From: Plasmodium brasilianum
Lineage: Eukaryota > Apicomplexa > Aconoidasida > Haemosporida > Plasmodiidae
DNA: 64,000 nt
Direction of reading: 5' to 3'
Assembly: GCF_023973825.1 (NCBI RefSeq)
Contig: NC_090123.1
Location: 1,223,501-1,287,500, forward strand
This document shows, in pieces, positions 10,485 to 51,516 of the stretch (position 1 is the stretch's first letter; every line of letters begins with the position of its first letter). The translations under genes were made by a program, and so were the position numbers. Below the pieces are notes generated by a model. That model saw only the letters and a list, made by a program, of their open reading frames with translations, made no database searches and was not told the origin of the DNA.

Positions 10485-10996
10485 TGTATACTTGTGTATT
10501 ATGTGTGTGCGTATGTGACTTCATAATTTATGTACAACTCATATGTAGAGGAAAATTCTTACTGGGACTTAACATTATAACAAAACGTAGCTTAAAAAAA
10601 AGAAAAATTCAAATTTGAGTATTAAGCAGAACAAAACAAATAATAATTGCGTAATATTAAGCACAATGGAATTATATATAAGCACGATGGGTAAAATATA
10701 GCATAGGAAAAAAGCAAGGAAAAAGAAGAGATAGGGAAAAACCAAACGAATGTTGTGGCCTATGCTTGTACATTAGTACATATATATATATATGTATATG
10801 TATACGCACACACACATATCCGCCCCGTCCATGCATATTTGCGCGTGTACATATATGCAAACATACTCAGTAGTACATGCAAGCGAACTTACACAATAGT
10901 ATATACATATCCACGCTCATTCACCTTCACACGAGCATTTGCGTCGAAGCAGTGAATACATGACTGAAAGAAAAAAAATAATAAAAGGCGCAAGCA

Positions 10997-11207
10997 ATGA
11001 ACTCCAAATTTAAAGTGTTACTAAACAAACTGCTGAACAAAATAGGAAATGATTGTGCATCATATAAAAGAAAAACATCGTTCAAACATTTTAAGGATAG
11101 CTTACGTAGTATTGTTAAAAATAATAGCATCGAAAAGAGAAGTACATGGGGAGTAAATGCTATTTATTGCGCTAATATAAAACCCATTACGCATAGTTGT
11201 AGTAGTC

Positions 11208-11265
<58 letters not shown>

Positions 11266-15336: not shown

Positions 15337-16770
15337 GGTATTAAATAAATAGCGGCATAAAAGTAAAGCTAAATATAAGGTATGAACCGGTTGAGGAGAT
15401 GAGTTAAAGTCAACGATTAAATTATATATCTTATTTATTTATGCTCCTTTTAATTTTTGAGCAAAAAAAAAACATTAACGATAAAATAAAGTTTAAGTTC
15501 AAAAAAAGGGGGAAAAAAAAAAAAAAAAAAAAAAAGATTAAAAAAAGGATTTAAAAAGAGAGTATAAAAGAGATTATAAAAGAGATTAAAAAAAGCGTGG
15601 AGCAGATATATGTATGCTCCGTCATGTTAAAATTTTTTCATCTGACTTTTTTACACAGTAAATTAAAACCCATATATATAAGTACATTTACGCATATGGT
15701 ACATATAAACATATATGCACACAAACAACATTTTGTACGCATAAAACAAACGTTGCACTGGTTGAAAATGTCGAAATTAAAAAAATTTAGATGGGAGAAG
15801 CACATACGCGCGCTATTCCTATGAAAATGCTATATAGGAAGGGGGAAAAAAAAAGAAAAAAAAAAGGTAGGTATAAAATGGAGTGAAAATGAAGTGAAAA
15901 TTGAGTATTAATGACGTAAAAATTGAGTATTAATGACGTAAAAATTGAGTATTAATGAGGTAAAAATTAAGTAATAATGAGGTAAGAAAGATAAGCACAT
16001 ATATATATGGTTCCTTAAACGTATACACATGGGACATATTAGAAATTCACGAGAGACATAAAAATGATTGTGTTATTAGTAGGCTTTAAAAAAAAAAAAA
16101 AAATATTAAAATAAAAAATTAAAATAAAATATTAAAATAAAATAAAATATTAAAATAAAATATTAAAATAAAATATTAAAATAGAAAATTAAAATAAAAA
16201 AATTAAAATAAAAAATAAAAAAAAAAAAAAATTAAAATAAATTAATAAATAATTAACTTGTGTAACATAAGAAGCATAAGAAACATGAAACGCATATAAC
16301 AGCTCAATGCAATATGAGCAACATACAAAGATTAAAAAAAAAAAAAAAAAACTTCAAATTGAGCTAAAAATAGACATAAAAATATTTCGATGAGAATTAC
16401 AAAACGCACATCAAAAATGGAAACAAGAATATATACATACACATATATGCACATACATACATATGTACATGCGTGTGTTCATGTTCATTTTTGCACATGC
16501 AATCCATACACATGAGTAACATCCCGATACAACCCTTTGTCATGGTTCACCTATAAGGAGGGCCTACAAAATGCTACGAGAGTAATAATGAAGGAAAAAA
16601 AATCATGTATATTGATGTATATCCTTATAAGGGAGAACTGTCAAGTGGGATGATGATATCTGAACATGTATTATAATACTAGTGGGTCAACGAGTGAGCA
16701 AACGACGTAGCCCATAACTGCGCACGCACCATTGGTACTCTTCTTAACCGGGAGAGAACCGATGGGAGAA
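15337..16770. other. intergenic region with short repeats
   Basis: This is upstream of the ATP12-like gene and downstream of the retropepsin-like gene. It holds three copies of a 22-bp unit (attgagtattaatgacgtaa plus aa, 15900-15960), an attaaaataaaat repeat (16105-16245) and A-runs. No gene is supported. Confidence 0.65.
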
Positions 16771-27509: not shown

Positions 27510-28179
27510 ATGGATGAAAAAATAAAAAAAATGAATAATAATATAGTAAGATTAGTGTGCTAAAGTTATTCTTATATTTTTTAATATTTTATATATGCAC
27601 GTGTCAGGTAAGAATATTGAACAGTATAAATATCGATACAACATTAATACTTTCAATTGCAATTCTTTTTTATCTTATATCTAAAATGTTGAAAAAGGCC
27701 TTTCATTTTTTATGCACATATTTGCATGGTAGACAGGTGGAGCTGCTAAAAAGAGGAAAAAAAAATAAAAATAAAAATAAAAAAAAAAAAAAAAGAAAAA
27801 GAAAAAGAAAAAGAAAAAGAAAAGAAAAAAATAAAATAAAATAAAGAATAAAGAATAAAATAAAAAATAAAAAATAAAATAAAAAATAAAAAATAAAATA
27901 AAAAATAAAAAGATAAAAATATAAAAAAATATATACACTAATACACTAATATATTAATACGAAAATATATGAATACTCTAATATATAAATACATGATGAC
28001 ATTAATCCATTAATACATGGATACATAAATACATGAATGCATAATTAGTTTTATACATGTGTAAATATGTGTATGTACCCTCGTGCATAAAAATATGAAC
28101 GGGCAAGGAAAAAATTCAACTGAAAAACAATTTTGCAGAAGGGCGTTATAGTAACATATGGACTTTAAACTTTTTGTAA
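27510..28179 (+). CDS. candidate small single-pass membrane protein, three exons
   Basis: Exons 27510-27545, 27608-27728 and 28139-28179 join in phase (GTAAGA donor with CAG acceptor; GTAGAC donor with GCAG acceptor) to 65 residues. It starts MDEKIKKMNNN, has one strong membrane helix (TLILSIAILFYLISKML) flanked by basic residues, and ends GRYSNIWTLNFL. If the second intron is not used, exon 2 runs into a poly-Lys ORF ending at 27844. I do not recognise a family. It would be the only plus-strand gene between the two large minus-strand genes. Short ORF support is inherently weak here; RNA reads across 27545/27608 would settle it. Confidence 0.4.
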
Positions 28180-28553
28180 ATCATTTTGTTGTATATGCAA
28201 GGTAAGGGAAAGAAGAATAACAATTTGTCATCTGAAAAGAGTTAAAAAGCAAGTAGAGAAAAAAAAAAAAAAAAATCAATAAAATGTAGAGAAAAGTGAA
28301 TGAGGAAAATATTTTTACTGAAAGTTGTACGACTATATACAGTGCCTCATGTTACGTTTAAAAAAATGTGCTACTGCAGTGGTAACTGCTACGACTGCTG
28401 CAACGACGCACATGCATAATTATTTGCGCAGCTTTATTCTGTTCTTCTTATTTTTAAATAAGCAAAATGTACACGCAAGCGAGTTGCATATGAAAGAAAT
28501 AAAAAGGTGTAATTTGGGGAAGGAGGGCATTTAGCAGGGAACACGCGATAAGC
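28180..28553. other. intergenic region 3' of the dynein-like gene
   Basis: A-rich sequence with a CTACTGCAGTGG/ACTGCTGCAACG patch at 28365-28410. I see no supported gene; it should include the dynein-like 3' UTR. Confidence 0.55.
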
Positions 28554-31500
28554 TTAAATATGCTCGACATGCATGTATATATAGACATATACGTATATAT
28601 ATATATTTTTTTTTTTTCCGTTTTTACTTTTTTTCGTGGACGGATTAAAACGCATAACAGGGCAGTAGTAAGCAAAATCGTTGTTATCAATTTGGTCCAA
28701 ATTTGTAAAGATATCATAGAAGGAATCTAAATTTTTTGGTTGTTCAGTTGACTCATTCATGACATTTTTACTATTTTCATCATAATGGTCCAGTTTTGCA
28801 TTTTCCAAATGTTCATTATTTTCACATATCCTATTTTTTTTGTTTTTCTTTATTTTTATCACTATATATGGAGAGTCATAGTAAAAGCTCTCTTCTCTTT
28901 CCCTCATATGCTCTTTGTAGTTATTCGAGCAATACATTCCTTTGCTTTCGTTGTGGTTACCACTATCGTTGTTGATGTTGTTGTTGTTGTTGTTTCCGCT
29001 GTTCTTGTTATCACCTTCTTTGTTCTCTTTTGTACAGTCATTCTGTGCGTGATCACTTGGTACATCGTCATTTTCGCTAGTTCCTTCGTAAAGAACTTCC
29101 ATATTTTCGTCTTTTTTATTTTCTTCATTACATACATTAAAATATATGTTGTTCTTTTTATGAATTCTTTTATGCGCAAAATTACGAGAGCTTTTCACGT
29201 ATTTGCTTTTGTATATTTTTATAGGTTCTATCCATGTGCCTTCTTCATTTCTAAAATGAAAAAACGAAATAAGGATAATCGGTTTGGGCACGTGGGTAGA
29301 GGGGTCTGCATGCAGGGGCCAGTCAGTGCTTCTTGTGTACGCACACATATATATATGCAGATATACATGCATATAAACATATGAACAGATATGTATGCAC
29401 GCATAAATAAGCGCTTGCACACGGTTGTAATAACCACTTGTGGACTTATTTCGTTCTCATCGTTCCTTTTTATTCTCCTTACTCTTTAAATTTTTCCGAG
29501 TACTTGAAGGAAATATTTAAATTGTTAACACGAACGTTCATGTTAGTTGCATATGTAAAATAAAGGGAGTAAAAAAATAACAAAGGATTTCTAAACATGG
29601 AAATATTGTAAATATTTTTTTTTCCCTTCTGTTCTTTGTTTATAATGTCTTTCAAATAGATTAATTTTTCTTTTATATTTGCAAAAAATAGGGTCAAATT
29701 TTGTTCGCCATTTGCTAGATATTCCCATTTTCTTGGTACCTTAAGAAGGGGAGGAAAAACACATGCGCATGGATCTATATAAATATATGCACATAAATAT
29801 AATATATATATATATATATATACATACATACATACACAAGGGCGCATAATTTTACGCCTGTGTGTTTCCCCATTCGAATTAGCAAAAAAAAAAAAATGTT
29901 CGTGTGAGACTCACTTTATAGGACAGTAGATCATTTTCCATGTTTGAATAAAAATTACTCAGAGCCTTATCGGATTGTACGAGTTTTATAAAATATTGAG
30001 TGTCCCTCTTCATTTCGTTAACACAACACACCAATGTATTGTACTCCTCCGTTAAATACTTTACTGCAAAATGTATATTCAAACAGGAAAAATGAGTAAG
30101 TGAAGAAAATGGTAATACGTGGGGATATATATGCTGAGCAGTCGAACGGGCCCACATATGTATATACATGCATGAATACATATATACATATGTATGCTTA
30201 TATCTGCTTATGTGCACAGTTATGAGTATAGGCAATGCCCTACGAAAAGATTATCTAAATACGCACATTTGGATGTAGCATTAACAGCGGGTTTTATAAA
30301 AGAACAGGAAGCGAAGTCATCGAAGGAGAGCAAAATTAACTTGAGTATACTTAATTTTTCATATCCATTAACAATTGAATATTTCGAAAGAAACACATGG
30401 TGCATTAATTTTATGTTATAACCCATTTGATATATATGAGCGACTTTGTTCTGTTGTAACATTTTAAGCATTAAATGAAAATTTTCTTGTATATATTCAG
30501 CTAGCTGTTTTATTGTCGAGATATTGCTAGGTATTTTTAATATATTATTCATATTTGATATGGCATTTTTATTTATCTTGTTTGAAAAGAAATTACTTAA
30601 AAATAAGAAAAACATATTCTTAGTTAACACCCATTTGGAGGGAAAGATCAGTTCCAAGAACGTTGACAGATAGCTAAGAAAGAAGTCGTTGTATCGTTCT
30701 TCCATTTTTTGCTCCTTTGTTTCCTTTTTAGCCCTCTCGGTGGTATGCTCCGTAGTATGCTCCGTAGTCCTATCCGTAGTCTGTTCCATTGTATGCCCCG
30801 TTATATGCCCCTTTGGATTGTCGCTAACAACCTCACCTTCTACTTCACCCCTGTGTGCGTCTTTCCCATTCAACACATCGCATGTGTTGTAGAACGTTTC
30901 AACTAAGTAAGTCATGTCGTTAATCAGATCAAATTCTAAACTCACATTATCTAAGTGCATTTGTTCATTTATGAGGACGAAAAAAAGAAGAGAGAAGAAG
31001 ATGCACCTCGAGTGGGTTTCACTATCACCTCGATCATCATCACTATGATTGTTTCCGCAGCTGTTAATGCAGCTGCTGTCGTCATTGTTGCTGCTGCTTC
31101 TTCTATGCACATCAGGCGTATGTTTATGTGTGCGACCAACCTTATCACATTTGCTCTTGTCGCCTTGCTGCCCCCATCCAAACGAATCAATAGCATAGTA
31201 CAAAAAGGTCAAGTAGTCACGTGAGTGTAAGCTGAAGTCCATATTAACCCTAACAGAGTTTCTTATCAGATAAGGAGTCATTACATTAATATTGAAGTAG
31301 AATACTACAAATATTTTATATATATTATTTTTTATGAAATTTTCTAATTTATTACTTTCTTCTTCATTTTTAATATCTAATACGATTACATCAGTTAATT
31401 TTGCCTGAACAGTGTTCATGTTTTTTATGTCGAGAAAAAGGACATTGTTGTTACTGAGCAGTACTTTTGACAGTATAAAACTGTACTGATTCTTTTCTAA

Positions 31501-34500
31501 AAGGATAATTATTTTACTTTTTTCTTTTAAAATGGTATTAAAGTAGCTGTAATTATTAATTTGGTCAAGTACAGGAAGACAATTTTTATACGGGGAAATT
31601 TCCACTAAATTTTCTGTGCTCTCTTCTACCAAAATATCCACGCTCTTTTCTGCCAAATTTTCTATCAGTTTTTCTCCGTATAACTGTGGGACTGGGTGAA
31701 ACACACCTGGCGCTTCTCCCACTTTGTAGATGGCACCATTAATGTTTGCATTTATAAAATTATACAAATTGCAGTATATGTTGTTCTTACTGATGCATAT
31801 ACTGCTTCCTAACTTTAAAGATACGTAATTTATAATAGAAATGTGTAGATAATTTCTTCTTACAATTTTGTCTACTACTATTTTGTAAAAATACATTGAA
31901 GGGTTCCTTAACTCTTTTAGGGGAATGTCATTTTTACTATTAATTTCACAGAATTCATCTTTCTCTTTTATTATATAAGCATTCCATTGCATTTGATTTT
32001 CCTTTATATTTTGTAACAGCTTTTTAAAAATTTTTTTTTTGCAATTTTTTAATTCAATTAATTTGTCTAAGTAGTACATTATGGATTCTTTCTTTTCTCT
32101 CTGTGCTCCTTTTTGTAATTTTTCTATTTCATCATCTTCAATGCTATCAGAATATTTACATGATAACAGGTCAGACTCATCGCTACCTTCTGATGACTCT
32201 TCATAGAATAATTTTTTTAATTTTCTTTTCTTTATATAAAGTAATTTATCTGATTCTTCTAGGTTCAGTATCAGTTCTTTTATTCTGTGTTCTTGCTTAC
32301 TATGTAGTATTGCATCTTGGGTTCCCATCCTTGTGTTCCCCTCCCTCAGGTAAGTCCCCCTGCCACAACTATTATTGTCATTGTCATTACCGTCATTACC
32401 ACTGCTACAAATACGATTACTATTAATTCTATCGTTACTATTAATTCTATCGTTACTATTAATTCTATCGTTACTATTAATTCTATCGTTACTACTAAAA
32501 CTATCGTTGCTTCTAATATTACCATTACTACTTGTGTTATTGTTGCTTCTACCTCTGATTGTACCTCCGCTTCTTCCGTTCTTTCCCTTCTCAAACTGGG
32601 AGCTCTCCTCTTCTCTGTCTAGTTCATAAACCATTAATCCAAAGTGCTCATCACAAGTACTGTCATTCGTTAGGGTAGAAAAACTATCATATATTTCATT
32701 GAACTCATCGTATTCACTTAACAACTTACCACATTCACTTAATTCACCACAACAGTACTCCTGCGTTTTAGTCTCATAATTATTCCCTTGCAAAATGGTT
32801 TTTCCCCCTTCGAGCCTCTTCTCGTGAGAGGTACACTTTTGGTGTTGAAAAGGAGAAAACTGATTTGAATTTTTTTCTGAACAGGGATCATATGCTTTTT
32901 TTCCATAAGGACTATAACTTCCCTTACTTGAGAACAAATTTTTTTTTTCCGCATATACACTGTCATGTTTAATATGCCCTTCCTTTTGTAACCTTGTTTG
33001 TGCTTCTACTTTTTCTTTATTATGGACAATATCTTGAATCACTCTTCTCTCACTATGCTTATTGTAATTTCTAAAAAATAAAAATATGTCCTTCCATTTT
33101 ATGCATTTGTAGAAAAATACATCCAAATATATACTCAGGACAAAATTTAAAACTAATATATGTTTGCTGTCAATAAATGATATGATATGAAAGTAAAAAA
33201 AATTCAAAATATCCTTTTCATTATTCTCCTTTTCCATACAAAATTGATAAAAAAATGACTTAACAATTTTTAAGTAATGCCACTTAGGGATAGTATAATT
33301 TTTTTTAAATATTTTTATCGTTTGAGTTAGTAAGAAGAATACATATAATAAGATAAATTTATTCTTCTTGCTTGACCCGTTCCAGTTTCTCAATGCCTCT
33401 TCATTTTTTTTCCTTTCCATATATCTCTCTTTTTGCTTAATTAGTTCTTCTTTCGCTTCTTGTTCGTTCAGCTTTTTATTCAAAAGGGCATTTGCTGTGT
33501 TCATGACCTACGGTTAGAGTAAGGAGGATGCACAGGTGAATCAGGTTACAAGAAAATAGGTGGACATGTAAAGCGGGGATGAAATGGATTGATAGGCAGG
33601 TAAAGCGGTTAACAAATGGATAGTAGAACATGTAAAGGTTTATGCTCCTCTTTCCACTGATGCACTGGCATAATTCATCTGTCGTACCTTTTGCTCGTAT
33701 ATTTCTTTCTCAAGAACAGGAAAGGAACAATCCATATTTATTTTTTTCACTTTAGTATAGTAATAGAAGAATAAATTAAGAATATTCTTTCTTTTATATT
33801 CACAAAAGAGCACATGATAGTTATGTGGTATATTGTCAAAGTTAATCTGTTTATAGCTGCTTATAAAAATATATATAGCACTCTTACAGCAGTGGACATA
33901 ACTTTCATTTAATATACTATAAGTCTTCTCATCTATTCCTTTAAAGATAAAGTAGTAATTATTATCTGCGTAGTATTTTAGGTTATTCAAAAATGTTGAT
34001 GTTAAGTCTTCCTCATTAATATTATTATCTTCATTTTCCTGTGTGGTATTCTTAGTATTATGTGTTAAGTTGCTATAGCAAGAAGGGTACATGCTACACA
34101 TCATTCCATTTTTAACATAGACATAGTTTTTCTTCTCTTGCTTTACTTTTTTGAAAAAATATTTTTTCAATTGATAAAACGGATCGACACATATAATTAT
34201 TTTGTCATTTGTAGTGTCTAGTATATGACAATTAAACATGACCATGCTATCATTGCAGAGTTTAAGTTGCTCGTACTCCTTTACAAAGGATGTGTTAAGG
34301 AAGCCTTCAAAATTTAGTGCGCGCTTGAGATCCTCCTTGGCAGCATCTTGCGCACTATGCGATTGGTCCGACAAGTCATATTCGTCGTAGTCGTCATACT
34401 CGTCATATTCGTCATACTCGTCATACTCGTCATACTCGTCATATTCGTCATATTCATCCGATTTGTCATATTCATCCGATTTGTCATATTCATCCGATTT

Positions 34501-37500
34501 GTCATGTTCGTCCGGTTTGTCATGTTCGTCCGGTTTGTCATGTTCGTCTGGTTTGTCATGTTCGTCTGGTTTGTCATGTTCTTCCGATTTGCGGGATGTA
34601 CTTCCCTCTATGCTTCCTTCAACGGAACTGTATGCCGTTTGACCAACTCTTTTCCCCTCAACATCACACCAGTTTTTATATTTATATTTTTCCAAAATTA
34701 ATAATTTTAAAAATTTGACTCGTTCCTTGCGATCAAAAGAAGAACAGTAACAGAACAGAATAGACTTAAAGAGAAGAATTTTTTTTTTCCTCTTTATCTC
34801 TTCTTTGACATCTTCGCGGATTGAGAGTAGCTCCTCCTACGAATAGTATCGAGCGAGAAAAAAAAAAAAAAAAATTAATTGAATTGATTAACTGGTTGAT
34901 TGACTGATTTGGTTGACTGATTTGGTTGATAGGCTGCCTGATTGATCGAAATAAAGGGCGAACCCTGCTTATCACGTGTATTGATGGAACGAAACGTTAA
35001 ACGTGCTCGAGGTGCAAGGTATATGGTGCATGGTACACTTGCTCTATTCGTTTTTTACGGACATACACGTACACAAATCTGTAATTTTGCTTTCTTTTTT
35101 TTCGTTTTGCACTTTTTCTTTTTCGTTTTGCACTTTTTCTTTTTCGTTTTGCTTTTTTTCTTTTTCGTTTTTCTTTTTTTCTTTTTTTCTTTTTTGTCAA
35201 ACCGCAAACATGGCGAGGACGTCGGAGGGCAAAGCGCTTGTGCGCATAGCTTTTATTTTTTCTTTTAGAGAAACAATTCCTGTTTTTAGTTCTTTTATCT
35301 TCTGTAATTGATCATTTAGTGTTTGTTTCTTTTTAGCATAATCATTAATAGCAGTTATGAAGTTGTGTATTATGCGAATAAACTTGTACTTTAGAAATTT
35401 GTACACGTTTGCCATGTTCTCGTATTTTAATACAAGGTTTTTATTAACAGCAGCTTCGTTAATATTTTGGACTTTTTTTAAAAAGTAGCTATATGTGAAT
35501 GTATTTTTTATGAAATGCTTATCGTTCTTTTTGTTTATATATAAATATAAAATTTTAAGAAATCCTATGTAGTTGTCTTTATTACTAAATTTAAAGTATT
35601 CAAAATCTTCTTTTGTGATATTTTTTAAATTATTTTTTGCCTTAAGTATATTTATTTTATATTCTATTAACTGACGTTTTACGCAATTTGTTAATCTCTT
35701 CAGTTGAATATTTGCCTTTTTCAAGTCACTGACTTCTTTTTTTCCTGTCTTGTTCAGGTTAAATAATTTTGCTAACAACTTTTTGCACTCATCTTTTTTG
35801 ATATATAGAAACTTATTCAGTTCTTCTTCCACAAACATGTGGTACATGTCATATGCATGCTTAGCTAATGCTGAGATACATTCACCACTGTATACTTTTC
35901 CTTTTGTTTTATCTGTTTCTTCGTTAGGATAAGCTTCATCTGTACATGTTTTCTTTCTCTTTTTCTTTAGGACAATATTATTTAAGTTATGTACAAGGTT
36001 ACAAATAAATAGGAATTCCCGTTTGTTCCTACACACAGATGAAGAAAGGCTTTTTGTTTTCTTTTTTTTGTTTTTTTTGTTTACCTCTTCTTTATGTAAA
36101 GGAATAGAGAGAAAAGAATAAGTTAGTCTATTGCGCACATAATTATAAAGAGGAATAGAAATGTTAAATGAAAATATATCACTCTGTTCAAATTTGTATA
36201 AATTTAAATATGCTATATAACAACTTTTAAATAAGTAGCTGAACTTTTGGTGATAATTATTATATAAAGAATGAAAGTCATCCGAAAAAAATAAAAAATG
36301 ATTCTTGTCTTGTAGTAAAGAAAATATATAATTGTTGAAATTTCCTTCTATGATCAACTCCTTATGCTTTATAATATTTATTATTTCTAGATAAAAATCG
36401 TTAACAAAATTGTCATATAGTCCATCCAAATCACAGTTGTAAAGAACTTGGTCGAAGAAGCCCATATACTCATCAGTGCTTAACATATGAGAGAGAAAAA
36501 CATTTTTGCATACTAGGGGAGTTTCCTTTCGGTGCTCCCACTTACTATGATCACTGCCTCTATTAGCGCTTAACAAACATATGGTACGGTTGTATGCCTC
36601 CCGTATCTGACTCTTCGTAGTATCCAAATGTTCACTCAAAAAAATAGAAGTGTATGTTTTATAATGACAGTAGATGTCAATTATTTTTGACAATAACACC
36701 TTCTGATGATTAAGAAAAATAATATTAGTTCTTCTTATGATTAGGTACGAATTTATTAAAATAATTATTTGTATTAAATCGTTATAGAATATTTCAATGT
36801 TTTTCCTTTCAAAAAATATATTCAAATCGCAAATACTTAACCTGTTGCTAGCATCATCACATAGGTTCGTCTTCTTTTCAAAGGACACAACATTATTACT
36901 ATTCATGTTTAGAAACAAATCGTTATCATCATAAATCATGTATTTTCTAAAGTGCTTATCAATATTTGTTTTTATTATTTCCTCGTACTTTATTCTATCT
37001 TTATAATTAATAACGTCATTACAGAATATGCGGAACAGATCCTTTTTAAAAAAAATCAATATATCATTAATACTGTTAGTGCACTCCTTATCATATAGCA
37101 ATAAATAATTTATTATATTGTTAATCTTGTTGATATGGAGATAGTATTTACTCTTCTCCTTTGTCTTTACTATTCCCTCAAATATATTCATAATGCACGT
37201 TATAAAACTATTGCACTCGTTTATTACTTCTTCACAAAAATTCTGCAGGAAGAATAGGGGGGGGAAGAAGAGAAGTATAAAGAGGTGTCAATGTGTATAC
37301 ACGTGTGGATATACTCCTTAATATATATATATATATATGTATATAGGTAAGTAGGTATATAAATATATGTATACGTACGCTCCCACGAGCGCACGAACAG
37401 AAGGCTCTACTCACATATTTAAGGAATAGGGACTCTATTATATTTGAATAGATGGAGTGTATGTCCTTCATTGTTAGTGTAGACACATTAAGAATAAAAA

Positions 37501-40500
37501 AGTTTTTGTATATTTTTTTAAAAGTGCTGTGATTACTTTCAGCAATCGCACTGTGCTTGTTGTTTAAGGTACACACAATTCTGTTCTTAGAAAACATTAC
37601 TCTCCTATTTCTTTCAACGTCGAAAAAGGCCTGCAGGGAGGGAGGGAAGCGAAGCGCGTGCGTAGGTGGTGATAAGCGCGAATAAGTATTATGATATATG
37701 CACTCATAAGTGTAGTGTTAAGTAGTGCTAAGTACTGTTAAGTAGTGTTAAGTAGTGTTAAGTAGTGTTAAGTAGTGTTAAGTAGTGCTAAGTAGTGTTA
37801 AGTAGTGCTAAGTACTGTTAAGTACTGTTAAGTAGTGTTAAGTAGTGCTAAGTACTGTTAAGTAGTGTTAAGTAGTGTTAAATAGTGCTAAGTACTGTTA
37901 AGTAGTGTTAAATAGTGCTAAGTAGTGTTAAGTAGTGCTAAGTAGTGTTAAGTAGTGTTAAGTAGTGCTAAGTAGTGCTAAGTAGTGTTAAGTAGTGCTA
38001 AGTAGTGTTAAGTAGTGTTAAGTAGTGTTAAGTAGTGTTAAGTAGTGTTAAGTAGTGTTAAGTAGTGTTAAGTAGTGCTAAGTAGTGTTAAGTAGTGCTA
38101 AGTACTGTTAAGTAGTGCTAAGTAGTGTTAAGTAGTGCTAAGTAGTGTTAAGTAGTGTTAAGTAGTGCTAAGTACTGTTAAGTAGTGCTAAGTAGTGCTA
38201 AGTACTGTTAAGTATTGTTAAGTAGTGTTAAGTAGTGTTAAGTAGTGCTAAGTACTGTTAAGTAGTGCTAAGTACTGTTAAGTAGTGCTAAGTAGTGTTA
38301 AGTAGTGCTAAGTAGTGTTAAGTAGTGTTAAGTAGTGCTAAGTACTGTTAAGTAGTGCTAAGTAGTGCTAAGTACTGTTAAGTAGTGTTAAGTAGTGTTA
38401 AATAGTGCTAAGTAGTGTTAAGTAGTGCTAAATACGCAAACATGTTATGCTAATCAGGCATACAAGTGCCGCTAAACCCGCGTGTGAGTAGTGCTCAGAG
38501 CGCGTGGATACAGCGTAACAGCAAAACATACAAGGCGTTATTTGCCGCTTTTCATCTTTACATTGTGCCTTATGAGATTGTAGAGGAACTCCATAGTCTT
38601 CTGAGACCGTTCTGTTGTCAATGAAGAAATGTCGTCTATGAAGATAGTAACATCATGAGTAATTTCATCTTTCGAAAAATAGAACGATTTGTTCAATTTT
38701 TTAATTATTTGATCATAATGAAAAAGATAATTGAATCGGAAAGAAAAATTGAAGATATAATTTTTTTTTTTAGTATATGCATTTAAGTAATTGTATATAC
38801 ACAAAGACTTGGCTGAGTTGGAAGTACCCATAAGCATAAAAGGTATATTCAAATTAAATGATATATTTAAAAAGTTGACCACTGATAGAATGTTCATATT
38901 TTCAAAAAGGAAATAATTAGAATTAGTTATTAGCACATTATGCATTAGTTTACTTTTATCTATTAATATATTTTCACTTCTGAAAAACTTTTCTTGTTTT
39001 AAAATTTTATTTGTTTCCATATTGTAGTATATATGTACAAATGATGTATTTCGTGGTATTATAGATATATTATTTATGTATTTAAATATATAATTTTCAA
39101 AATTTGTTCTTAGATCGTTTTGCATAAAAGATGTAAACGTATATATAAAACAAATAGTTATGATGTTATTCAAGTGGTTATCTATTATTTTCTTATCCGA
39201 TCCTTTTTTTTCCTTCAATATATTTATAAAGTATTCAATGAATTTGACAAAATGGTGTATCAGAGTATTTACGTGAATACTTATGCGCACTTCGTTGTCT
39301 TGCAATACCTCAATGACTCCTTCCTCTTCCGCATCTGCATCAGTTCCACCGTCTTCCGAGTCGTCATCTCGGAGGGGATCGCTCTCACTACTTCCAAAGC
39401 TTACATCACTATCACCACCATCATGCTCATGTTCTTTCCCCTTTGTCCAGGCTGACCTTTTTTTTCCCTTTTTCGAACTATTGCCCTTTGCGATCTCATC
39501 TGTTTGTTCATCTCCACCATCTTCTTTACCCTCTTCCATAAATCTGTCTGTAAGTCCTTCTCCACATTCGTCGGCGTAAAACAATTCACGTCCTCCTTTC
39601 TTCGCATGCTGACTACCATTCGACTGACTATTCTCAGTTGCATAATCTTCGCCATCTACTTTCTGTTCTATGTTGCCCTCATTTGTTCCAACCCTCCCAT
39701 GATCTCTCTTCCTTCTGCGCACCATCTGAGTAGTATTCTTTCTTTGCTTCTTAAAAAAATTTAGAGTTTCCATAATCAAGTCTTCAAATAATTTTATGAT
39801 TTTCTTTTTTGCAAATTTATATGTTTTTATCTGTTCCACTGAGTAAGTAATGAAGGAAATATAAGGAACAGTATGCTTGACATTAATATAATAAACTTTG
39901 TCAAAAATGTATGGAGAAATTTTACTTAAATTTTCGGGTTTATATATAAAGCATTTGTGATTGTTATCATTATTTTCCTTATTTATTTCGCTGTACATGT
40001 TTTTCTTTAATGTATAATTACATATCTTTTCTATTAGTTCTGTCTCTAGTACGCTTATAAGTTTTAGTACTATTTTACTTTTATGCCCATGGTGCAGCTC
40101 ATTATTCCCTTTTAGGTTTAGCCTCGACTTACCTGGCCTACTCTCACAATTCGCGGCATATTCCCTTCCATGAGGGGGCAGAATTTCCTTCATTTCTCGC
40201 CCTTGTTCGAGGGACTGCTCAAGGGGATGTTCAAGGGGCTGCTCTGCTACTTGTTCTCCCTCCGTCTGATGGTTGACCTGGCCATATGACAAGTTCTTAG
40301 CCGATTGCGTTATTGGTCGTATAATTCCATTTCCCGCGGCATTCTTTAATTCGTCATTTACTTTTAATACCTTTTTTCTCATTTCTGCTATCCCTTTGGA
40401 TTCATTTGTATGGCCTAAAATAGGCATATCTTCATTGTGAAGAAGAAACCGTAGAACGTCCTTCTTCTGGCAGTAGTTCAAGTTAATTTTTTGAAAGACG

Positions 40501-43500
40501 CACAAATTATATGGAGAATTCTTGATCTCTTCCAAATATTTTAAAAAATGATATAGAAGAAAAACAATAATACTTATCCCTGAAAAATTTTTTCCAACAA
40601 TTAAAATGTTTGTAATTTTATTTCCTTTCCTTTTATCCCACTCTATACTTTTTTCCTTTTCATTTTTTATATTTATTATTTCATACATTTCGATAGCTTT
40701 ATCTATTTGGTATTTCAAAAAGTTCATTTTCTTTTCTTTTTTTAAAGCTTCTATAACGTTATTTATTTCTTTTTTCCAGTATTTAGTAGTACGTGTTGGG
40801 GAATGGAAGTTTGTGTCAGACCAGATATATGATTCCCGTTCCTTTTTCCCCTTATGTTTCCCCTCTTCTGTCTCTTCTTTCTGTTCCTCCTCTTCTTCCT
40901 CTTCCTCCCCTTGATGTACCTTTTTCTGTGCATATTTAAGCATCTTCTCACATCCCTCCCTTGACATGTTAAATAATAAACAAGTATTTTTTACCACCTC
41001 CTTTAGTTTATGCATTCCCACAAAATGCGAACAGAATTTTGTTATCTCTTTCACAATGGCATATTCTTCATTCGACTTGCATTTGATCATGCAAGTCTTC
41101 ACAACTTTGATGAGCTTCTGTATACTCATGTGTTTCCTGAGCGCGTCCTGTGTAGATGTACACATGAGAAAGTGTGTACGAGAGTATGTGTGTAGGTATG
41201 CACATAAATGAAAAGGGAAACACATAGACACATGTAAAAATGGGCAAACGCACACATATATACAACCGAGAAAACATGAACACATGTAAAAATGGAAAAC
41301 ATAAACATGGAGTTCTCCCTTGACATGCTTACGTGCTGCCTCAAGTAGTGATATGCCCTGTGCACTGCATTGGAGAGGGAGACCGCTCTGCTGCTTCCAA
41401 AGGAAAGGAAGAGAAGGTGAAATAGCGGCAATGAAAATGGCTTGAAGGATTGCAATAACGAAAAAGAAAACTGCAGCTTCTTCGCACTCATATGATAAGA
41501 CTGGTCAGAATAGTAATCATAAAAAGGGATAGAGATTTTACTGAGTGAAACATATATAAGATGCTTTTTGTTTAAATTAATTTCGTTGTTATTATTTATA
41601 ATTATGGAATTCTTCTTATTCATAAGATGATAATTTATGTTTGATAGTTGTTCATTTAATAATGCTAAAAGGTCCGGTTTATAAACATCTATTTCATGAA
41701 AGAACACAGACACATTAGAACACAAACTACATGATATAAAGTTGAGTATTTCACTATTTAGTAAATTTATTTGATTAATGAAGGCATAGTGAAACCCTAG
41801 AAGCGTAGAAAAATTTTTTGAGTATTTCATTATGTACGTAATGTTATTATTAGAACAGAGAGTAATCACATTATTTTGCAAATATTTGTAAAATAAAAAG
41901 GTGTACTCTCTTTCGTGATATAACAAGTCCATTGAGTAGTTGTAGTTACCTATCAGTTCATATCGGTATTTCACATTATGATGAAAAAATCTTATGTAAT
42001 AGTTGTCTTTAGTATAGTAGTGCTTTATTTGTTCTAAGTAGCTGTAACTGTAACTATAGCTCTGACCGCTCACACTACAGTTGTTATTCTGCGTTCTCAG
42101 TATGGATTCCATCTTTTCTTTCATGTGCATAAAGAATGCCAGGATAAATGATATGTTCTTTTTTTCCTCCTCACCTCTGTCACTGTTAATATTGTTGTTA
42201 CTATTGCTGTTGTTACTATTTCTGTTGTTACTATTTCTGTTGTTACTATTGCTGTTGTTACTATTGCTGTTGTTACTATTGCTGTTGTTACTATTGCTGT
42301 TGTTACTATTGCTGTTGTTAGTATCGTTACTTCCATTCCTAGTAGCTTTGTTCTTAGCATCGGCTTGCTTCGGTGGGTGCATGGTCCTGCGGACCTCCTC
42401 AACTATGCTGCTTATGTTTTGAGTGAGAGCATAAAGGACAAATTTATTTTTCTGCACATCCTGAAAAACGTACTCCAGAATGTGCGTAAAATATATGCTT
42501 AGCAAAATGAATAATACTTGTCTATTTTGTATTGGCATAAAAAAGAGATAGGTGTCCTCCTTTAAAGGGGTAAAGAAATTTTTACTATTGACGTATATCT
42601 GTACTGTTCGCATTAGCCAGGATTTAATTTCATTGTTAATTTGGTTTAACAGAAATTCTATCTTTTTAAATTTTATTTCTTCTTTAAATATGATTCTTTC
42701 ATTATCATTAGTTAGAATCCCACATATAGCTTCATTTTGATAAATTATTTTTTTTACATAAGGAAAGAGTTTGTGTACATATGTGTTCAAACTTTTCAAA
42801 TCAGTTAGACTTAAATATACATTTAAGAATTCTTCATCATTTAGGAGATAAAAAGAATAGTATTCTCTTCTCCTTAGTAATGTATTCTTTTCGACCTCTT
42901 TTATTATATCCTGTAACTCGATCAAAAAACCATTAAAATAGTTGAAGTCATATTCCTTCTCAATATGTTTAGTAACATGAGGATATATATAGAATTCTTC
43001 ACACTGGTGTTTATATTTATTAATAATAAAATTTAACTGATCGATGTTTATAATTTTCTTTAGTTCGTTATTCTTATATCTCTCTAAATTTTTTAGGCAT
43101 AACTGTATACTCTTAATAATTACTAAAATGTTCGTAAAGCCCCGAATTTGTTTAGACAGTTTATACATATCTTCGTAAATATGCTTACTGAACAAATTAT
43201 TTTGAATTATAAACAAATCAAAAAGAAGGCTTCTTAAATCGGGTATAAGTTCGTTCACATTATTGATGATATACACTTTCTTATTCATCAGACTTACATC
43301 TATTTTATACTTTTTTAACGTTATCTTTATCTGTTCAAATTTTTCATTTATCTTCTTTTCCTTTTCGTACTCGTAGCATATTGCTTCTATTTGCGCCAAG
43401 CTATCCTCAAACTGCAGTTCGAATAGATGCCTCAGTTCTATCTCCCCGTACAAGTACGACAGGATAGGAGACGGTGGAATAGAGACTGGGGAAGCACCTG

Positions 43501-46500
43501 CAGTAGCAGGTGGAGTAGAGGCTAGAAGAGTTTCTGATATAACCTCTGACGTGGCCCTTGTTGTAACAGATGACGAAACCGCTGACTCAGCTTCTACTCC
43601 TTTGGAGTGATCCATGTGCACCCCTACTTCGTACATATCGGCGTGTTTCCCCTCGTGCTGCTGCTCATCCAATCTCCTGCAAAGATTTAGAGTGTCAATC
43701 GTCCTCTTGAAGTACTTTTCACTGTTGCACACAATGACGAAAAGCTTCAAAATTTTCAGAACACCATCATACATTTTGCAGAGTCTACTACATTTGTCAT
43801 AAAAGTCTTTGTTTACGAAATTTTTGTTAATTTTTTTAAAAAAAAAGTTAATATTATCTATTTCGGTGGACAGAAGTTCTATATTTAAATTTTTTATTTT
43901 TTGTAATTTATATTTTTCACTACAGCAAATGTATTTGAAGAATGTATATATAGTTAAACTATTATTTATAAACATATTTTTCAATAAACTGAAATTTACA
44001 AATTCGTTTTTCTTTTTTTTCAATACGTTTTGATAATACAAGTATTTATTTACCTCTTTTTTTATACTCACTATTTTTAGCCTAATAAATTCTAAGAGTT
44101 CAAAAATGTAAAATCGTTTTTTCATTTCATCGTTCAGTATTACTATTTCATTACTCTCGTTAATGCGGAAGTATTTTTCCAGGATGTTGTTGTCAGAATG
44201 CTCATAGAAGTCATCCTTCTCAGAGGAAGTGAGAAGTACGATTCCTCCCTTTTCTTGAACACCAATGTACTGTGCTTCTTTTTTTTTCCCCTCTTCCACT
44301 TCTTCAACGTGTGCTACGTCCTTTCCAATGATCCGATTTTTAGCCTCTTCTCCATTTCCTGTAGGAGTTGTAACTCCTCTGGAGCAGTAGACCTGGTTAA
44401 TATCACTAACAGGTGTAACAAAGCGGAGGGCTTCTACCATCTGTGGCAGGGAGTAGTTAGCGCTATTTGGAATCAAGTTACACCTGACTATGGTAAGCAT
44501 ATTTTTTATTTTCTTTTCAATTTGATTAATTTCGGATGATAAGTCTTTATATAAGTCGTTGAACTGTAAGTCATAATTTTTTTCGCTATGTAAAATACTT
44601 TTTAATGATATCATTTTTTGATTTATATGAAAAATTTTCGTAGTTTGATTCCCATTAATACTTATATAATACTTCTTAAAAAGAAGAAAGAGAGACGAAA
44701 TGGATTCTATATTTTCCTCAATTTGTATTAATTCATTTTCAAAAATATTAACAAAGTAGATGTAAGAAACCAATTCATCAATGGTACTTGGTTTTTTATT
44801 AATAATAGTATAGGATGTATCTAACTTTTGTGCTAATTCTTCTATTGTCTTATTATTTAAAGAAGGTAAATAATTTATTAAATCCATCCATTTTTTATTT
44901 ATATTTTTTAATAAATAATCTATCAATATACTGTTGTCTACTTTAAATATATGAATGCTAAATTGTTTGTTCATTTTTTTTATTTTGTTTTCTAACTCCT
45001 TAAAGGATGTGAACAAAAGTGAAACGGACGTTACGTCCATTATGTTTATTTTTTCAATCTCTATTTTTTCATATTTGTTATGTAATGCTATAATATTACT
45101 GAAATCTTTGCATGCATCGTACATGGAATCGTACAGAATTCTCATCTTATCCTTCAGCTCGACGTCCAAATTGTATATTGTTTCGTCTGCATGTATGAAG
45201 TTAAAAAAGTTCATGTTCTGTTTGTCCACGTCAACTGCATCAACCACGTCAACCGCATCAACCACGTCAACCGCATCAACCACATCCACCGCATCAACCA
45301 CATCCACCGCATCAACCACATCCACCGCATCAACCACATCCACCGCGCTAATAGCTTTTCCGCTAACATCCTTCGACTCCGCCCGCTTCCTACCCCCCCT
45401 GGTAGTAAACACGACTTTGTCGACGAATATTTCCCTTTTGAAAAACTCTTTTACTTTGTAGTACTGCATGAACTCCTCCCTTTTACATATATGTTCTAAG
45501 CTCATGTTTAAGTAATACATAATAGTATTTATGAGTAAATCATATTCTGGAGAAATTTTTAATTTATCCTCTTCTATAGTTAAAGCGACACTGAAAAGAC
45601 ATATATCGTTATTTATTTTGTTACTACTGCTATTACTCTTACTATAAATGTTGATGCTATTTCCAATACTTCTATTTTCGCCCTTGCTATTGTTTTCTTT
45701 ATCTTCATTTTTAATTAATTTGTAAGGTACATATTTATTCGTTGGCGATTTGGTCGTATTACCACTTTGATGTAAGTTTTTTTTTAATTCTTTATATTCG
45801 TTGAATACAGTATACCCTTTTCTGCTTTCTTTCAACTGATTACTTTTTTTACTATTGCTGAGTGTGTAGCCTTCCCCTCTTGCTTCCTCCACATCGTGCT
45901 TATTATTCTTGCTCCCATCAACCAGACTAATATGACTTCCATTCGAATTAACTTGTTTTTCACTTCTACTAACGTGGATGCCCTTCTCGCCGGAACTACT
46001 CCCCCTATCGTCCATTTCAAAATAGTTGTTCAACTGCTTGAGGAAGTACTCGTAAGTGTTAATGATGATTCCCCTCAATGTGTTGTCACACATGTACTGA
46101 CATAAGCGAATAAAACGTTTTATATATATGCAATAGCAGTTGCTGAGGGCTATTTTGTTATAATATATATCTATACTTGTTTCATCTTCCTTCTTTTTAT
46201 ACATTTTTTTTTTATATATATTTTTCTGCCTACTTATTTGAGTCTTTCTTTGGACACTCCTACTCCCCATGCCCTTCATAAGCGCACTTCTGGGGGGCAG
46301 ACGACCTCCGTTACTTTCATCTACACCTATTGAAGTACCGCTATTCTCACTTTCGTTTATCACAGTACCGCTATTCTCATTTCCGTTTATCACAGTACCG
46401 CTAACCACGGGACCGCTACCCCTTGACATATCTTCTCTTATCCCGTTTTTTCTCAAAAAATCGTTGAGGGCCTTGAGACAGTACTTACATATTATGTTTG

Positions 46501-47994
46501 TTATTTGTTTCAGCTTTCCCTTCAGAAATGAATCAAATTTTAAGAAATACTCATTTTGGAATTCCTTAAATTGTTCTATGTTCACATTATTTATATTTAT
46601 ATCCACTAATTTGAATTCATTCAATTCGTTTAAAATTATTTGTATTTGTATGATACCTTTTAAAAAACTGTCGTTTAAAAACAGTAAGTTCTCTTTTATA
46701 TATGCTTTTTTCTTTTTAAATTTGGTAGACTTAATTCTATTTTTTAATAAAAAAAAATATTTATATAAGGGAAATTTCTTAATAAATTTTAATCCTAAAG
46801 CACTATTTAGTAATGTTATATGGTTTTTCCATTCATTTATTTCGTAAAATGTTGTTTCGTTCTTTTCATTTATCATAACTCCGTGTAGTGAGATAGACAT
46901 GATTCCTATTTCTTTCTTGTTTCCACAGTCCACTCGTTCGTAGCGGTTGTTAGACAGCCTTAACAGGGGGAAAAAAGGCGTCCGTAAATGGGTATATATA
47001 TGTGTGTATACGTGTGTATGTTAGTATATGTACATGGTATATGTGTATATATTATATGTATACGTAATATATGTACATGTATGTATGTGCACTTCTTTTT
47101 TTTGCCTATTTTATTAGTGAAATGTGTCTGGTAGTCTATTGTCAAAGAAACAAATAAATTAGCTAGTTGGCGAATTGACAAGACTGGTGAAGAAGAAGAA
47201 AGGGGGGGGGAGGAGCGAATGAAAACAAAGCCGCAAAAAGATGTAGGCATTGTCAATTAGAAGCGCATGAACAAAACGTGCAAAAAAGGGGAGAAGCATA
47301 TAATAATAGAAGTGGAAAAGTAATGCCTAAAGTATTATGTGTATACAAATGATATGCATACACGAATTATGAACAATTGAATGTGAGGGAACACAAAATT
47401 TTACCTCCTTACATAAATAAATGCGTTGTTTTTTAAATTATTCTTCACAAATTCTATCAATTCTATGTGGTTCTGCCATTTGTTCACTATACTGAAGCTT
47501 GCTTCTACAATGTTCTTTGTCTTACTGTACGTATTTTCTTTTTCTTTTTCACTGCAATTTTTTCCCTTTTTCATCCAAATCGCATCGTAATTGTAGGGAG
47601 TAGGCGTCGTGGTACTAGTACCTGCAGCAGTACCTATAGCACCACCTGCCGCAACAGCTGCAGTGGGCACGTTTTTACCCGAGTGATCATCTCCCCTTAT
47701 ATTTGTTTTTCTAAGAGAGATTTTTGTTTTATTATTTGCGCTACTAGCATTCTCCTTAGAAGCAGCATTTTCCTGTAATATATCGTTTATTTCGAAAAAA
47801 ATATCAAAAGCATTTTTTTCACCATCATTTATTTTTTTGCTACTAACACTGTCTTGCTCAAACGTTGATGTTACACCTATGCTCCTTTTCCTAGAATGAC
47901 CTACTACTTTATTTTTTTTTTCATTACAAACATGTTGGTTACATGTGTTACTAAATTTAATTACTAGGTTTTTTTTTAGTGAGCTATAATTCAT
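28554..47994 (-). CDS. degenerate dynein heavy chain-like protein
   Basis: Ten exons: 47405-47994, 41333-46958, 38562-41147, 37415-37630, 35203-37242, 33688-34836, 30267-33507, 29915-30063, 29483-29739 and 28554-29250; phases join to 5,516 residues. Dynein landmarks occur in order: DHC_N2 segment (KKPSTIDELVSYIYF), linker end (RREYYSFYLLNDEEFLNVYL, about residue 1560, then VEDWL-like IKSWLMR), AAA1 (about 1900-1960), AAA2 (about 2250), AAA3 (about 2845-2910), AAA4 (about 3180), stalk base, AAA5, AAA6, C-terminal VPRKWEYLANG and the terminal YYCPV. Missing parts: the AAA1 Walker A position reads ITYIMKYSKN and the Walker B FDEFNR equivalent reads FHEIDV; AAA2 has VGKNFSGIS; AAA4 has FLNHQKVLL. 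AAA3 is least decayed (GTSNSAKS, FIDDISS). The stalk is about 70 residues in total, with no microtubule-binding domain. Long Asn, Asp/Glu and Val-Asp-Ala repeats interrupt the fold. The weakest junction is the GTTTGA donor after 35203. Confidence 0.85.
32418..32502 (-). repeat. 18-bp in-frame repeat in dynein-like exon 7
   Basis: Copies of aattctatcgttactatt encode Asn-Ser-Asn-Asp-Arg-Ile repeats within a polar insert of the AAA6 region. Confidence 0.85.
34376..34580 (-). repeat. in-frame acidic repeats in dynein-like exon 6
   Basis: Two adjacent repeat families encode DEHDKP units (about five) and DEYDEYD units (about eight), placed just after the stalk remnant and before AAA5. Confidence 0.9.
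37715..38432. repeat. 10-bp minisatellite filling intron 3 of the dynein-like gene
   Basis: About 70 head-to-tail copies of agtagtgtta with three main variants (agtagtgtta, agtagtgcta, agtactgtta) lie inside the intron 37631-38561. Phase is essentially unbroken over 700 bases. The unit is about 35 percent GC, well above nearby introns. Confidence 0.95.
42190..42320 (-). repeat. 15-bp in-frame Asn/Ser repeat in dynein-like exon 2
   Basis: Repeats of gctgttgttactatt encode Asn-Asn-Ser-Asn-Ser units between the linker and AAA1. The opposite strand yields a meaningless Leu-rich ORF. Confidence 0.9.
45232..45345 (-). repeat. 18-bp in-frame Val-Asp-Ala repeat in dynein-like exon 2
   Basis: Six or seven copies encode V-D-A-V-D-V in the tail region. 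Two sub-types (cacgtcaaccgcatcaac and cacatccaccgcatcaac) form adjacent blocks, which indicates recent local duplication. Confidence 0.9.
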
Positions 47995-48121
47995 TATTTA
48001 TTCCTTTCTCCTAATTCCTTTTTATTCTTGTATTTCTCCTTTTCTGTATGCCTTTTTTTTTTTTTTTTTCTTTTTTTTTTTTTATGAACATTTAAAAAGT
48101 GAAGGAAAGGAATAATATCTA

Positions 48122-48335
48122 TTAACTTTATATAAACTTTGTATAAACTTTGTATAAACTTTGTATAACTTTTGTATAAACTTTGTATAAACTTTGTAAA
48201 ACTTTGTATAACTTTTGTATAAACTTTGTATAAACTTTGTAAAACTTTGTATAACTTTTGTATAAACTTTGTATAAACTTTGTAAAACTTTGTATAAACT
48301 TTGTATAAACTTTGTATAAATTTTGTATAAACTTT
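48122..48335. repeat. 11-bp repeat upstream of the dynein-like start
   Basis: About 19 copies of tttgtataaac with shortened variants (tttgtaaaac) lie within the 5' flank or UTR of the dynein-like gene. Confidence 0.85.
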
Positions 48336-49710: not shown

Positions 49711-50024
49711 AAATAAAAAACATTCGTAAGTTTTACTTTTTTATCATTTCCTACTATAAAATAAAAAATAATTACATGAGCGAATAACTTACTATTTAAG
49801 AGCTTATTTTAATATGAAACAGTGGTTAAGCGAAAAAAGAATTTGCAAAAATAGTAAGAAAAAGGTGAAAAGGCACAGGGATTGGGATTACATGTAATCA
49901 TATAAATATATATATATTTGTAGAATTGTACGTATACACATACAAACGTACGTTTCATGCACGAACATATACCCGTATACTCACATACCCACACACATGA
50001 GTAGCACACACAGCAACAGAAAAA

Positions 50025-50225
50025 ATGAATATGTTTTTTAACAAATTTATAAAAAGCACAAAAGAAGATAAAGGAGGAGAAGCAAAAAAGAAAATTTGTT
50101 GTGTTTGTTTAGAAACGAAAAAATTAAGAGACGAGTGTATCATAAATTTGGGTGAAGATCAGTGTAAAAAGTTTATTGATGATCACAATCAGTGTTTGAG
50201 GAAAGAAGGATTCGATGTAAAATAA
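50025..50225 (+). CDS. COX17: cytochrome c oxidase copper chaperone Cox17
   Basis: 66 residues, single exon. KICCVCLETKKLRDECIINLGEDQCKKFIDDHNQCLRKEGF carries the Cox17 signature: CC-x-C for Cu(I), then the twin C-x9-C helices (Cys at DEC, DQC and NQC) of the CHCH fold. Cox17 carries copper in the intermembrane space to Sco1/Cox11 for cytochrome oxidase assembly. The length and the ending GF-D-V-K match the family. The first ATG (50025) and the third codon ATG (50031) are both possible starts. A GTAAAA donor at 50218 and an AAG acceptor at 50413 would replace the last two residues with GKIEDVYH in phase; the unspliced form is the simpler reading. Confidence 0.96.
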   Translation: MNMFFNKFIKSTKEDKGGEAKKKICCVCLETKKLRDECIINLGEDQCKKFIDDHNQCLRKEGFDVK

Positions 50226-50934
50226 AATTCCCTACATTTGTTGTTTTCACGAACCCGCGAATATAGCAAAGTACGTATATATATATATACATACGTACAT
50301 TCATAAAGTCATACAAGTATACATATCCTTTTGTCCCTCTCCTAAAATATCTTTTAATGTACATGAATTGTCCTTCTTATGCGTGTATATATTTTTTTTT
50401 TTGATTTTTCAAGGGAAAGATTGAAGATGTATATCATTAAGGTTTTGATGAGAGTTATGCAGTTTGTTTTTTAATTTTATAAATGCATTCATATGAATGC
50501 ATAATTTTATACCCATGTGCACATGTGCAACACTCAGAGTGGAAACATAAATATTTGTGGAGGTATCGGAATTAGTTTAATTTTCCTACCCTTGTATGTT
50601 TTTCAGTTTTGAGCTAAGCAGTATTTGTTTTAATTCAATCTATCTTCTTATAAATATTTGTGTGTATTGTGTACATAAGCGTATTTACACACATTTTAAT
50701 AAAATTATGAACTATTCGTAATTATTTCCTTTGTTTTATTAAAGGGGAGAATTTCTGTGTCAATGAAAAATATCCATTTTATATGTAAAAAAAAAAAATA
50801 AATAAGGAACAAAAGATTTTTGAACTCGTTTAATTCGCCATATTTACACACGTACATATACTCATACAATCAAACTGACTTATGCGAGTACAACAATTGC
50901 ATTCACAACTAAAAGAGGACAAGACAAAGAGGAG
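50226..50934. other. short intergenic region between Cox17 and bL35m
   Basis: Same-strand spacer. Apart from the possible alternative Cox17 terminal exon at 50414-50440 I see no gene. Confidence 0.6.
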
Positions 50935-51516
50935 ATGCTTCGCTTAAATTACAAAATTGGAAAAAATGTCCTGACATGTTCAGGAATGGTAAATAATTGC
51001 AAAATGTTTAGGCAATATGTTACCCATACAAATGAAATGATAATTGGTAGGGTTAATAGTCCCTTTAAAAATAACTTAACTACAATTGATAAAAGTAGTA
51101 CATTTCACAATAGTGGAAGTAGTAACATGTGTGTACATACAAAACTGAACAATAATTTTAAAAGGTTTTATAATCCGCGGGCACATATCAATTGGACACT
51201 TATTCGATTTAGACATAGGGTATCACAGTTAAGAAAAAAAAAATTAAAATATAAAAATCACTCAAAGGTTGCTTTACGATTTCGTTTAACAAAATTTGGA
51301 TGGGAAAGATTACAGTCAGGTAGAAATGCAAGTAAAAAAAATTTATCAGCTAAAAAGTGTAATGAAAAAATGAAAATAAAATATGTTTCAAGAGATGACA
51401 TAAAAAAGTTCAAGTTCCAAATGCAAAGTTATGTATTAAGAATAAGAGATTCACCCGTCGATTATAACCCTAACATAATGAGAGCTCGAAAGTATTTTCC
51501 CACACATTTTGGTTAG
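50935..51516 (+). CDS. mitochondrial large-subunit ribosomal protein bL35m
   Basis: 193 residues. The C-terminal half carries the bL35 pattern: KNHSKVALRFRLTKFGWERL for the family's K-x-HSGAAKRFKKTGSGKLKR, then SGRNASKKNLSAKK for KAGKRHLLTKK, and VSRDDIKKFKFQM for VSKSDAKRVKRLLPY. The first 90 residues are basic with hydroxylated residues and few acids, as expected for a mitochondrial targeting and extension segment. Bacterial bL35 has about 65 residues, so the extension is organelle specific. The start is the first ATG of the open frame. Confidence 0.9.
   Translation: MLRLNYKIGKNVLTCSGMVNNCKMFRQYVTHTNEMIIGRVNSPFKNNLTTIDKSSTFHNSGSSNMCVHTKLNNNFKRFYNPRAHINWTLIRFRHRVSQLRKKKLKYKNHSKVALRFRLTKFGWERLQSGRNASKKNLSAKKCNEKMKIKYVSRDDIKKFKFQMQSYVLRIRDSPVDYNPNIMRARKYFPTHFG

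Follow-up and report, generated by a model that had tools for sequence, protein, structure and literature searches.

Canonical axonemal and cytoplasmic dynein heavy chains (DHCs) share one module order: a linker, a ring of AAA modules, a stalk between AAA4 and AAA5 and a C-terminal domain. In known dyneins AAA1 drives the cycle and AAA3 regulates it, with no conventional powerstroke without AAA1, and the Walker and sensor motifs are taken here in their customary roles. Human DNHD1 (dynein heavy chain domain 1) has been termed a 'ghost gene' and an 'orphan' DHC (PMC8754002), and its loss damages sperm flagella (PMC9916431). In Plasmodium, Wickstead and Gull (2007) noted that highly divergent P. 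falciparum DHCs exist and excluded them from their survey (PMC2239267). Here we describe a gene in a 64,000-nucleotide window of the Plasmodium brasilianum genome (contig C10, positions 1223501-1287500; genome-wide searches covered the 31.4 Mb genome). This gene and its orthologues, the window family, follow the canonical module order and differ from canonical DHCs in lacking the AAA1 Walker A and the Walker B Asp, in lacking the P-loop Lys of AAA2 and AAA4, and in having a shorter stalk. Judged by its sequence, the gene is a conserved, catalytically dead DHC. DNHD1 resembles it, by description, as a retained dynein-derived orphan, and is by analogy a precedent for keeping such a gene. The divergent P. 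falciparum DHCs excluded in 2007 very likely include this family's member in that species; the available text of that survey neither names the window gene nor describes its ATP sites.

The gene and the segments that tie it to dynein are located as follows.

28146..47994, minus strand: whole gene, 11 modelled exons, 5,520 residues plus stop
47994-47405, 46958-41333, 41147-38562, 37630-37415, 37242-35203 and 34836-33688, minus strand: exons 1-6 of the splice model
33507-30267, 30063-29915, 29739-29483, 29250-28628 and 28231-28146, minus strand: exons 7-11 of the splice model
42608..43441, minus strand: DHC_N2 / linker (PF08393, E 1.8e-16), also matched in the genome search
29491..29739, minus strand: dynein C-terminal domain segment, starting VPRKW (PF18199, 5.5e-6)

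By descent and architecture, assignment of this highly diverged gene to the DHCs is secure on sequence grounds, given profile comparison together with exon-level Pfam matches. Single exons matched DHC_N2 (1.8e-16), AAA_7 (2.2e-6) and Dynein_C (5.5e-6) above the curated cut-offs; Dynein_AAA_lid (7.3e-4) stayed below its own, as did, slightly, the genome-wide Dynein_C score of the gene (24.8 bits). A family profile of four members was then compared with a canonical profile of six DHC paralogues of the same genome, using the reversed profile as a control. Local alignment gave 99.8% (E 5.3e-30), compared with 0.1% (E 0.51) for the reversed profile. The AAA1 to AAA4 modules aligned in order, in agreement with the AAA_7 match, and the post-stalk part (AAA6 and C-terminal domain) aligned with two references at 94.7-95.7% (E 6e-8 to 9e-9; reversed 0.1%). 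Dynein landmarks in order, as claimed in an earlier note made from the window's letters, were thus recovered by three Pfam families and by the profile alignment. Several results weigh against this assignment. In HMMER, the family profile recovered no paralogue out of the six with E allowed up to 10, and the canonical profile just one of the four family members. Probabilities from hhalign for the family against single paralogues ranged from 8 to 94%, and the P. relictum protein alone matched no DHC family above the Pfam cut-off. AAA5 is, from these alignments, the weakest placed module: it aligned partly with the C7 reference, and its start gave only a non-significant secondary match. The genome-wide Pfam search gave no AAA_9 match in the gene.

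The loss of catalytic residues was followed along the AAA ring at the positions below.

41786..41851, minus strand: AAA1 P-loop region, NNNITYIMKYSKNFSTLLGFHY replacing GPAGTGKTE...; Walker A absent
41687..41704, minus strand: AAA1 Walker B position, FFHEID in place of CFDEFN; Asp replaced
41522..41560, minus strand: AAA1 sensor-I region, LIYVSLSKISIPF; the aligned position has no Asn
40572..40595, minus strand: AAA2 P-loop position, GKNFSGIS, with Ile in place of Lys
38805..38828, minus strand: AAA3 P-loop, GTSNSAKS, Lys-Ser retained, second Gly replaced by Ala (AAA_7 2.2e-6)
38628..38642, minus strand: AAA3 Walker B, FIDDI, Asp-Asp retained
36670..36732, minus strand: AAA4 P-loop position, RTNIIFLNHQKVLLSKIIDIY, no P-loop

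We compared these sites in six sequences, those of the window, P. inui, P. coatneyi, P. relictum, P. vinckei petteri and P. chabaudi. In the profile alignment, canonical GPAGTGKTETTKDLSKAIG pairs with ...YSKDFSTLLG of the window protein, and no AAA1 Walker A was present in any of the six. The Walker B position reads FFHEID (window), FLHQVD (two sequences), FFYEID or YFFNAN (two sequences), always without the Asp; as a point on the other side, the catalytic Glu remains in two of them (window and P. relictum). The sensor-I Asn is seen once (P. relictum has N in the column). In all six, Ile, Arg or Val stands in place of the AAA2 P-loop Lys, and the AAA4 P-loop is likewise absent throughout (6/6). 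A scan for GxxxxGK[ST] found no occurrence across the 5,520 residues of the window protein. The P. inui protein carries one GxxxxGKS, at residue 3635 inside a non-conserved insert. In the Pfam scan of exons, the gene had no match to AAA_6, the AAA1 family. As a control, the genome-wide search with this model (PF12774) matched six other DHC loci and not the window gene, which indicates that the AAA1 loss is specific. The earlier note had reported most of this pattern, and the alignment across orthologues upheld it for the lost AAA1 Walker A (all six), the altered Walker B, AAA2 and AAA4 without their P-loop Lys, and the retained Lys-Ser and Asp-Asp of AAA3. Its claim that the AAA1 sensor-I Asn is gone stands for five sequences and fails for P. 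relictum. Because the AAA1 Walker A and Walker B Asp are lost in six of six, the alignments support the prediction that conventional motor function would be impossible for this conserved DHC-derived protein.

AAA3 retains Lys-Ser, Asp-Asp and the sensor-I Asn in all six sequences (the Asn placed by position), and its Walker A is complete (GG[SP]SSGKS) in two sequences, both from rodent parasites. This conservation would suit an AAA3-driven motor or switch, in which the sole remaining nucleotide site hydrolyses ATP and the stalk moves slowly. We consider such a device distinctly unlikely: the second P-loop Gly is Ala in the other four sequences, the window's among them, and the driving module of known dyneins is AAA1, with AAA3 as the regulator.

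The earlier note had also stated that the gene has no microtubule-binding domain (MTBD). This was not borne out, as a stalk with its tip could be placed between AAA4 and AAA5.

35626..35838, minus strand: stalk CC1, first coiled-coil arm, residues 3475-3545, shortened, 6/71 invariant
35326..35625, minus strand: MTBD-like stalk tip, residues 3546-3645, gap-free, 38/100 invariant in all six sequences
34774..35325, minus strand: stalk CC2, second coiled-coil arm, residues 3646-3707, interrupted by intron 5, 4/62 invariant

The stalk and MTBD-like segment aligned with the six canonical stalks in hhalign at 89% (E 2.3e-6; reversed 0.4%, E 0.16), and on this ground we rejected the reading without an MTBD. 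The MTBD segment alone gave 27% in global mode (E 1.3e-4; reversed 0.3%, E 0.15). The Pfam MT model (PF12777) speaks against the tip, with no match to the window gene in the genome search or to two orthologue stalks. From the MTBD start to the AAA5 anchor, all four family members have 159-160 residues, compared with 207-231 in five of the canonical paralogues; C9, which is truncated in this region, was excluded. The two arms seem shortened about equally, as an antiparallel coil needs. The alignments support a stalk that is shortened and ends in an MTBD-like tip, a putative microtubule contact.

Protein searches returned five orthologues, in P. inui, P. coatneyi, P. relictum, P. vinckei and P. 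chabaudi (4,666-5,116 residues). Outside Plasmodium, the same searches gave a single match, to a canonical DHC from an insect (E 4.1); the absence of P. falciparum from their results means that they did not reach that species and nothing more. Among bacterial and archaeal contigs, a scan gave 28 pattern matches and no relatives. NCBI names the orthologues as hypothetical, uncharacterized or of unknown function, and the UniRef label is dynein heavy chain. With the window protein included, pairwise identity was 37-91% and lengths ranged from 4,666 to 5,520 residues. Positions invariant in all six numbered 102/341 in the linker, 46/171 in the large part of AAA1, 56/196 in AAA3 and 38/100 in the MTBD-like tip.

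These orthologues also informed the gene model. The gene proposed in the earlier note, with long open exons and here placed on the minus strand, is well founded: GT-AG borders were found in all 10 modelled introns, and given the base composition of exon 2 the chance of its 1,875 stop-free codons is about 3e-72. For introns 5, 6 and 7, the joins were picked for continuous dynein-like reading over the top value of a crude splice score, by which the chosen pairs ranked outside the best eight listed, second and sixth, respectively; the orthologues align across all three. The ten-exon model ending at 28554 overlooked one exon, revealed by the orthologues, and its YYCPV is not the terminus.

28146..28231, minus strand: exon 11, C terminus ...KVHMLL, end conserved in orthologues

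The C terminus of the gene, NDKLLFFFPLPCIYNKMIYKKFKVHMLL, lies beyond YYCPV and is matched in five of five orthologues, which led us to reject the ten-exon model and to move the end to 28146. A pseudogene in decay, or a model that joins exons of unrelated genes, would account for the lost catalytic residues and for the large species-specific low-complexity inserts of the window copy. We regard it as very improbable, given five full-length orthologues, uneven conservation, gap-free constrained segments and a C-terminal exon conserved in all orthologues; a pseudogene was rejected on the full-length orthologues, and the earlier note's view that the gene is not one is supported.

Repeats occur in and around the gene. 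Low-complexity repeats lie within coding exons at 34375-34591, 42193-42324, 45226-45346 and 32412-32532; the exonic types are EHDKPD, NSN, VVDAVD and SNDRIN, and several of them fall where the orthologues show gaps or differ in sequence. Immediately upstream of the gene start stands an array of 11/43-base units (48120-48335), and one intron is largely repetitive.

37631..38561, minus strand: intron 3, mostly a minisatellite at 37712-38431 (720 bases, 20-base unit, about 36 copies)

To place the family among dyneins, the other DHCs of the genome were considered. DHC_N2 and Dynein_C each matched eight loci genome-wide, including the window gene and a divergent locus on contig C13. Among the six canonical loci, the best PDB matches were cytoplasmic dynein 1 for C2, outer-arm chains for C7, C9 and the C10 locus near 1.13 Mb, DNAH2 / 1-beta for C12 and DNAH1/DNAH7-type inner-arm chains for C3. 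A 1-alpha or DNAH10 chain was the best PDB match of none of the six, in agreement with Wickstead and Gull (2007), whose available text reports P. falciparum IAD-1beta as found and IAD-1alpha, IC138 and IC140 as not found (PMC2239267). Together with the C12 chain being closest to DNAH2 / 1-beta chains, and with the omission of highly divergent DHCs from that survey (PMC2239267), this gap would leave room for the window protein as the dead head of a two-headed inner arm. There it would replace IAD-1alpha (DNAH10-like) and pair with the C12 IAD-1beta, one head pulling while the other holds. We think this unlikely. No affinity of the family to a single DHC class, IAD-1alpha (DNAH10) included, stood out in comparisons with PDB and single-paralogue profiles: the PDB matches of the family profile were to mixed DHC classes and mostly confined to the linker end, and its best single paralogue in hhalign was cytoplasmic dynein, the least diverged one. 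The C13 DHC is, moreover, an equally good candidate. This second divergent chain (C13:353154-369393, many exons) resembles the window gene in matching DHC_N2 and Dynein_C and in having no Pfam match to AAA_6; it also matches AAA_9. It differs in that the window family's profile does not retrieve it, and its AAA1 was not located by profile alignment (best forward probability 2.1%). It is perhaps PF3D7_1465800, 'dynein beta chain', formerly named PF14_0626.

Genes on either side of the window gene point to its P. falciparum counterpart.

10985-13387, plus strand: GFPT (SIS and GATase / glutamine amidotransferase domains), from domain matches; microsynteny anchor
14050-15438, minus strand: ATP12-domain frame; microsynteny anchor
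50010-50225 (approximate, near 50097), plus strand: COX17-like frame, CCVCLETKKLRDEC, adjoining the gene
50824-51516, plus strand: frame with RFRLTKFGWERLQSGRNASKKNLS, no Pfam match

The COX17-like frame is assigned by its motif, and the last frame resembles mitochondrial ribosomal protein bL35. P. falciparum GFPT is PF3D7_1025100 (PMC4628283) and COX17 is PF3D7_1025600 (PMC7612242). Because the window gene sits between GFPT and COX17, PF3D7_1025500 is likely its P. falciparum orthologue by microsynteny. A table of gametocyte transcriptome data in which dyneins also appear names that gene 'conserved Plasmodium protein, unknown function' and gives it the Gene Ontology (GO) term microtubule-based movement (PMC10581088); in the available text of another paper it stands alone among P. 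falciparum genes, as of 2018, in carrying the GO term cilium (PMC5765010). Placing the protein in the axoneme depends on microsynteny and on GO annotation, which could itself be derived from domain matches; this counts against it. The architecture does not fix a cell location, and a microtubule cross-linker or anchor beyond the axoneme (spindle, basal body or subpellicular microtubules) would fit it too. We judge this improbable, as the likely orthologue has the GO term cilium and is listed with axonemal genes in the gametocyte table (the latter as far as the source's available text goes). In P. yoelii, dhc7 (PY17X_0510800) is male-specific and was among 12 tagged proteins, 11 of them axonemal (PMC11144265); it may be the orthologue of the window gene or of the outer-arm beta chain. 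Searches of one open-licence library returned no description of the window gene as a dead dynein and no paper with the former P. falciparum identifiers or the P. berghei ones that we guessed; among the papers listed, two contain PF3D7_1025500.

Taken together, we favour, with moderate confidence, a DHC-derived window protein kept as a non-motile pseudo-motor, its AAA1 ATPase having been lost before the sampled Plasmodium species diverged. Since related parasites retain the protein, it probably has a structural or regulatory part, perhaps in the male gamete's tail. Without AAA1 there would be no powerstroke cycle. The linker and stalk would be fixed in one state, or altered only through AAA3 by nucleotide or partners, and the stalk tip would contact a neighbouring microtubule, either lastingly or under slow regulation. 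The microgamete axoneme is the parasite's only flagellum, and the protein would work there as a static or regulatory arm. Most likely, it would be a static or AAA3-gated microtubule cross-bridge of that axoneme; a non-motile, microtubule-holding head, fixed or set by AAA3, agrees with the parts under constraint, which are the linker, the AAA1 shell, the AAA3 site and the stalk tip. The earlier note's non-motor dynein-like scaffold holds up as a conserved protein that is not a conventional motor (AAA1 lost in 6/6), while 'scaffold' names one of several possible roles; with the AAA3 site retained and the stalk tip conserved, the protein may well be more than an inert one. A bolder proposal, which we rate as rather unlikely, is that Plasmodium has made permanent non-motile heads from one, perhaps two, DHCs. 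The window protein would then be the dead partner of IAD-1beta in a two-headed inner arm, its short stalk holding the neighbouring doublet while the partner pulls and AAA3 acting as a slow switch.

A full-size DHC without AAA1 that keeps AAA3 and the stalk tip across Plasmodium splits the structural from the motor use of the dynein fold, and the role of AAA3 and the stalk without AAA1 becomes directly testable. A gene so far annotated as of unknown function also gains a likely identity. If the protein is axonemal, it may help to explain how microgametes beat with an inner arm whose 1-alpha chain, IC138 and IC140 are not among the components found according to the available text of the 2007 survey (PMC2239267).

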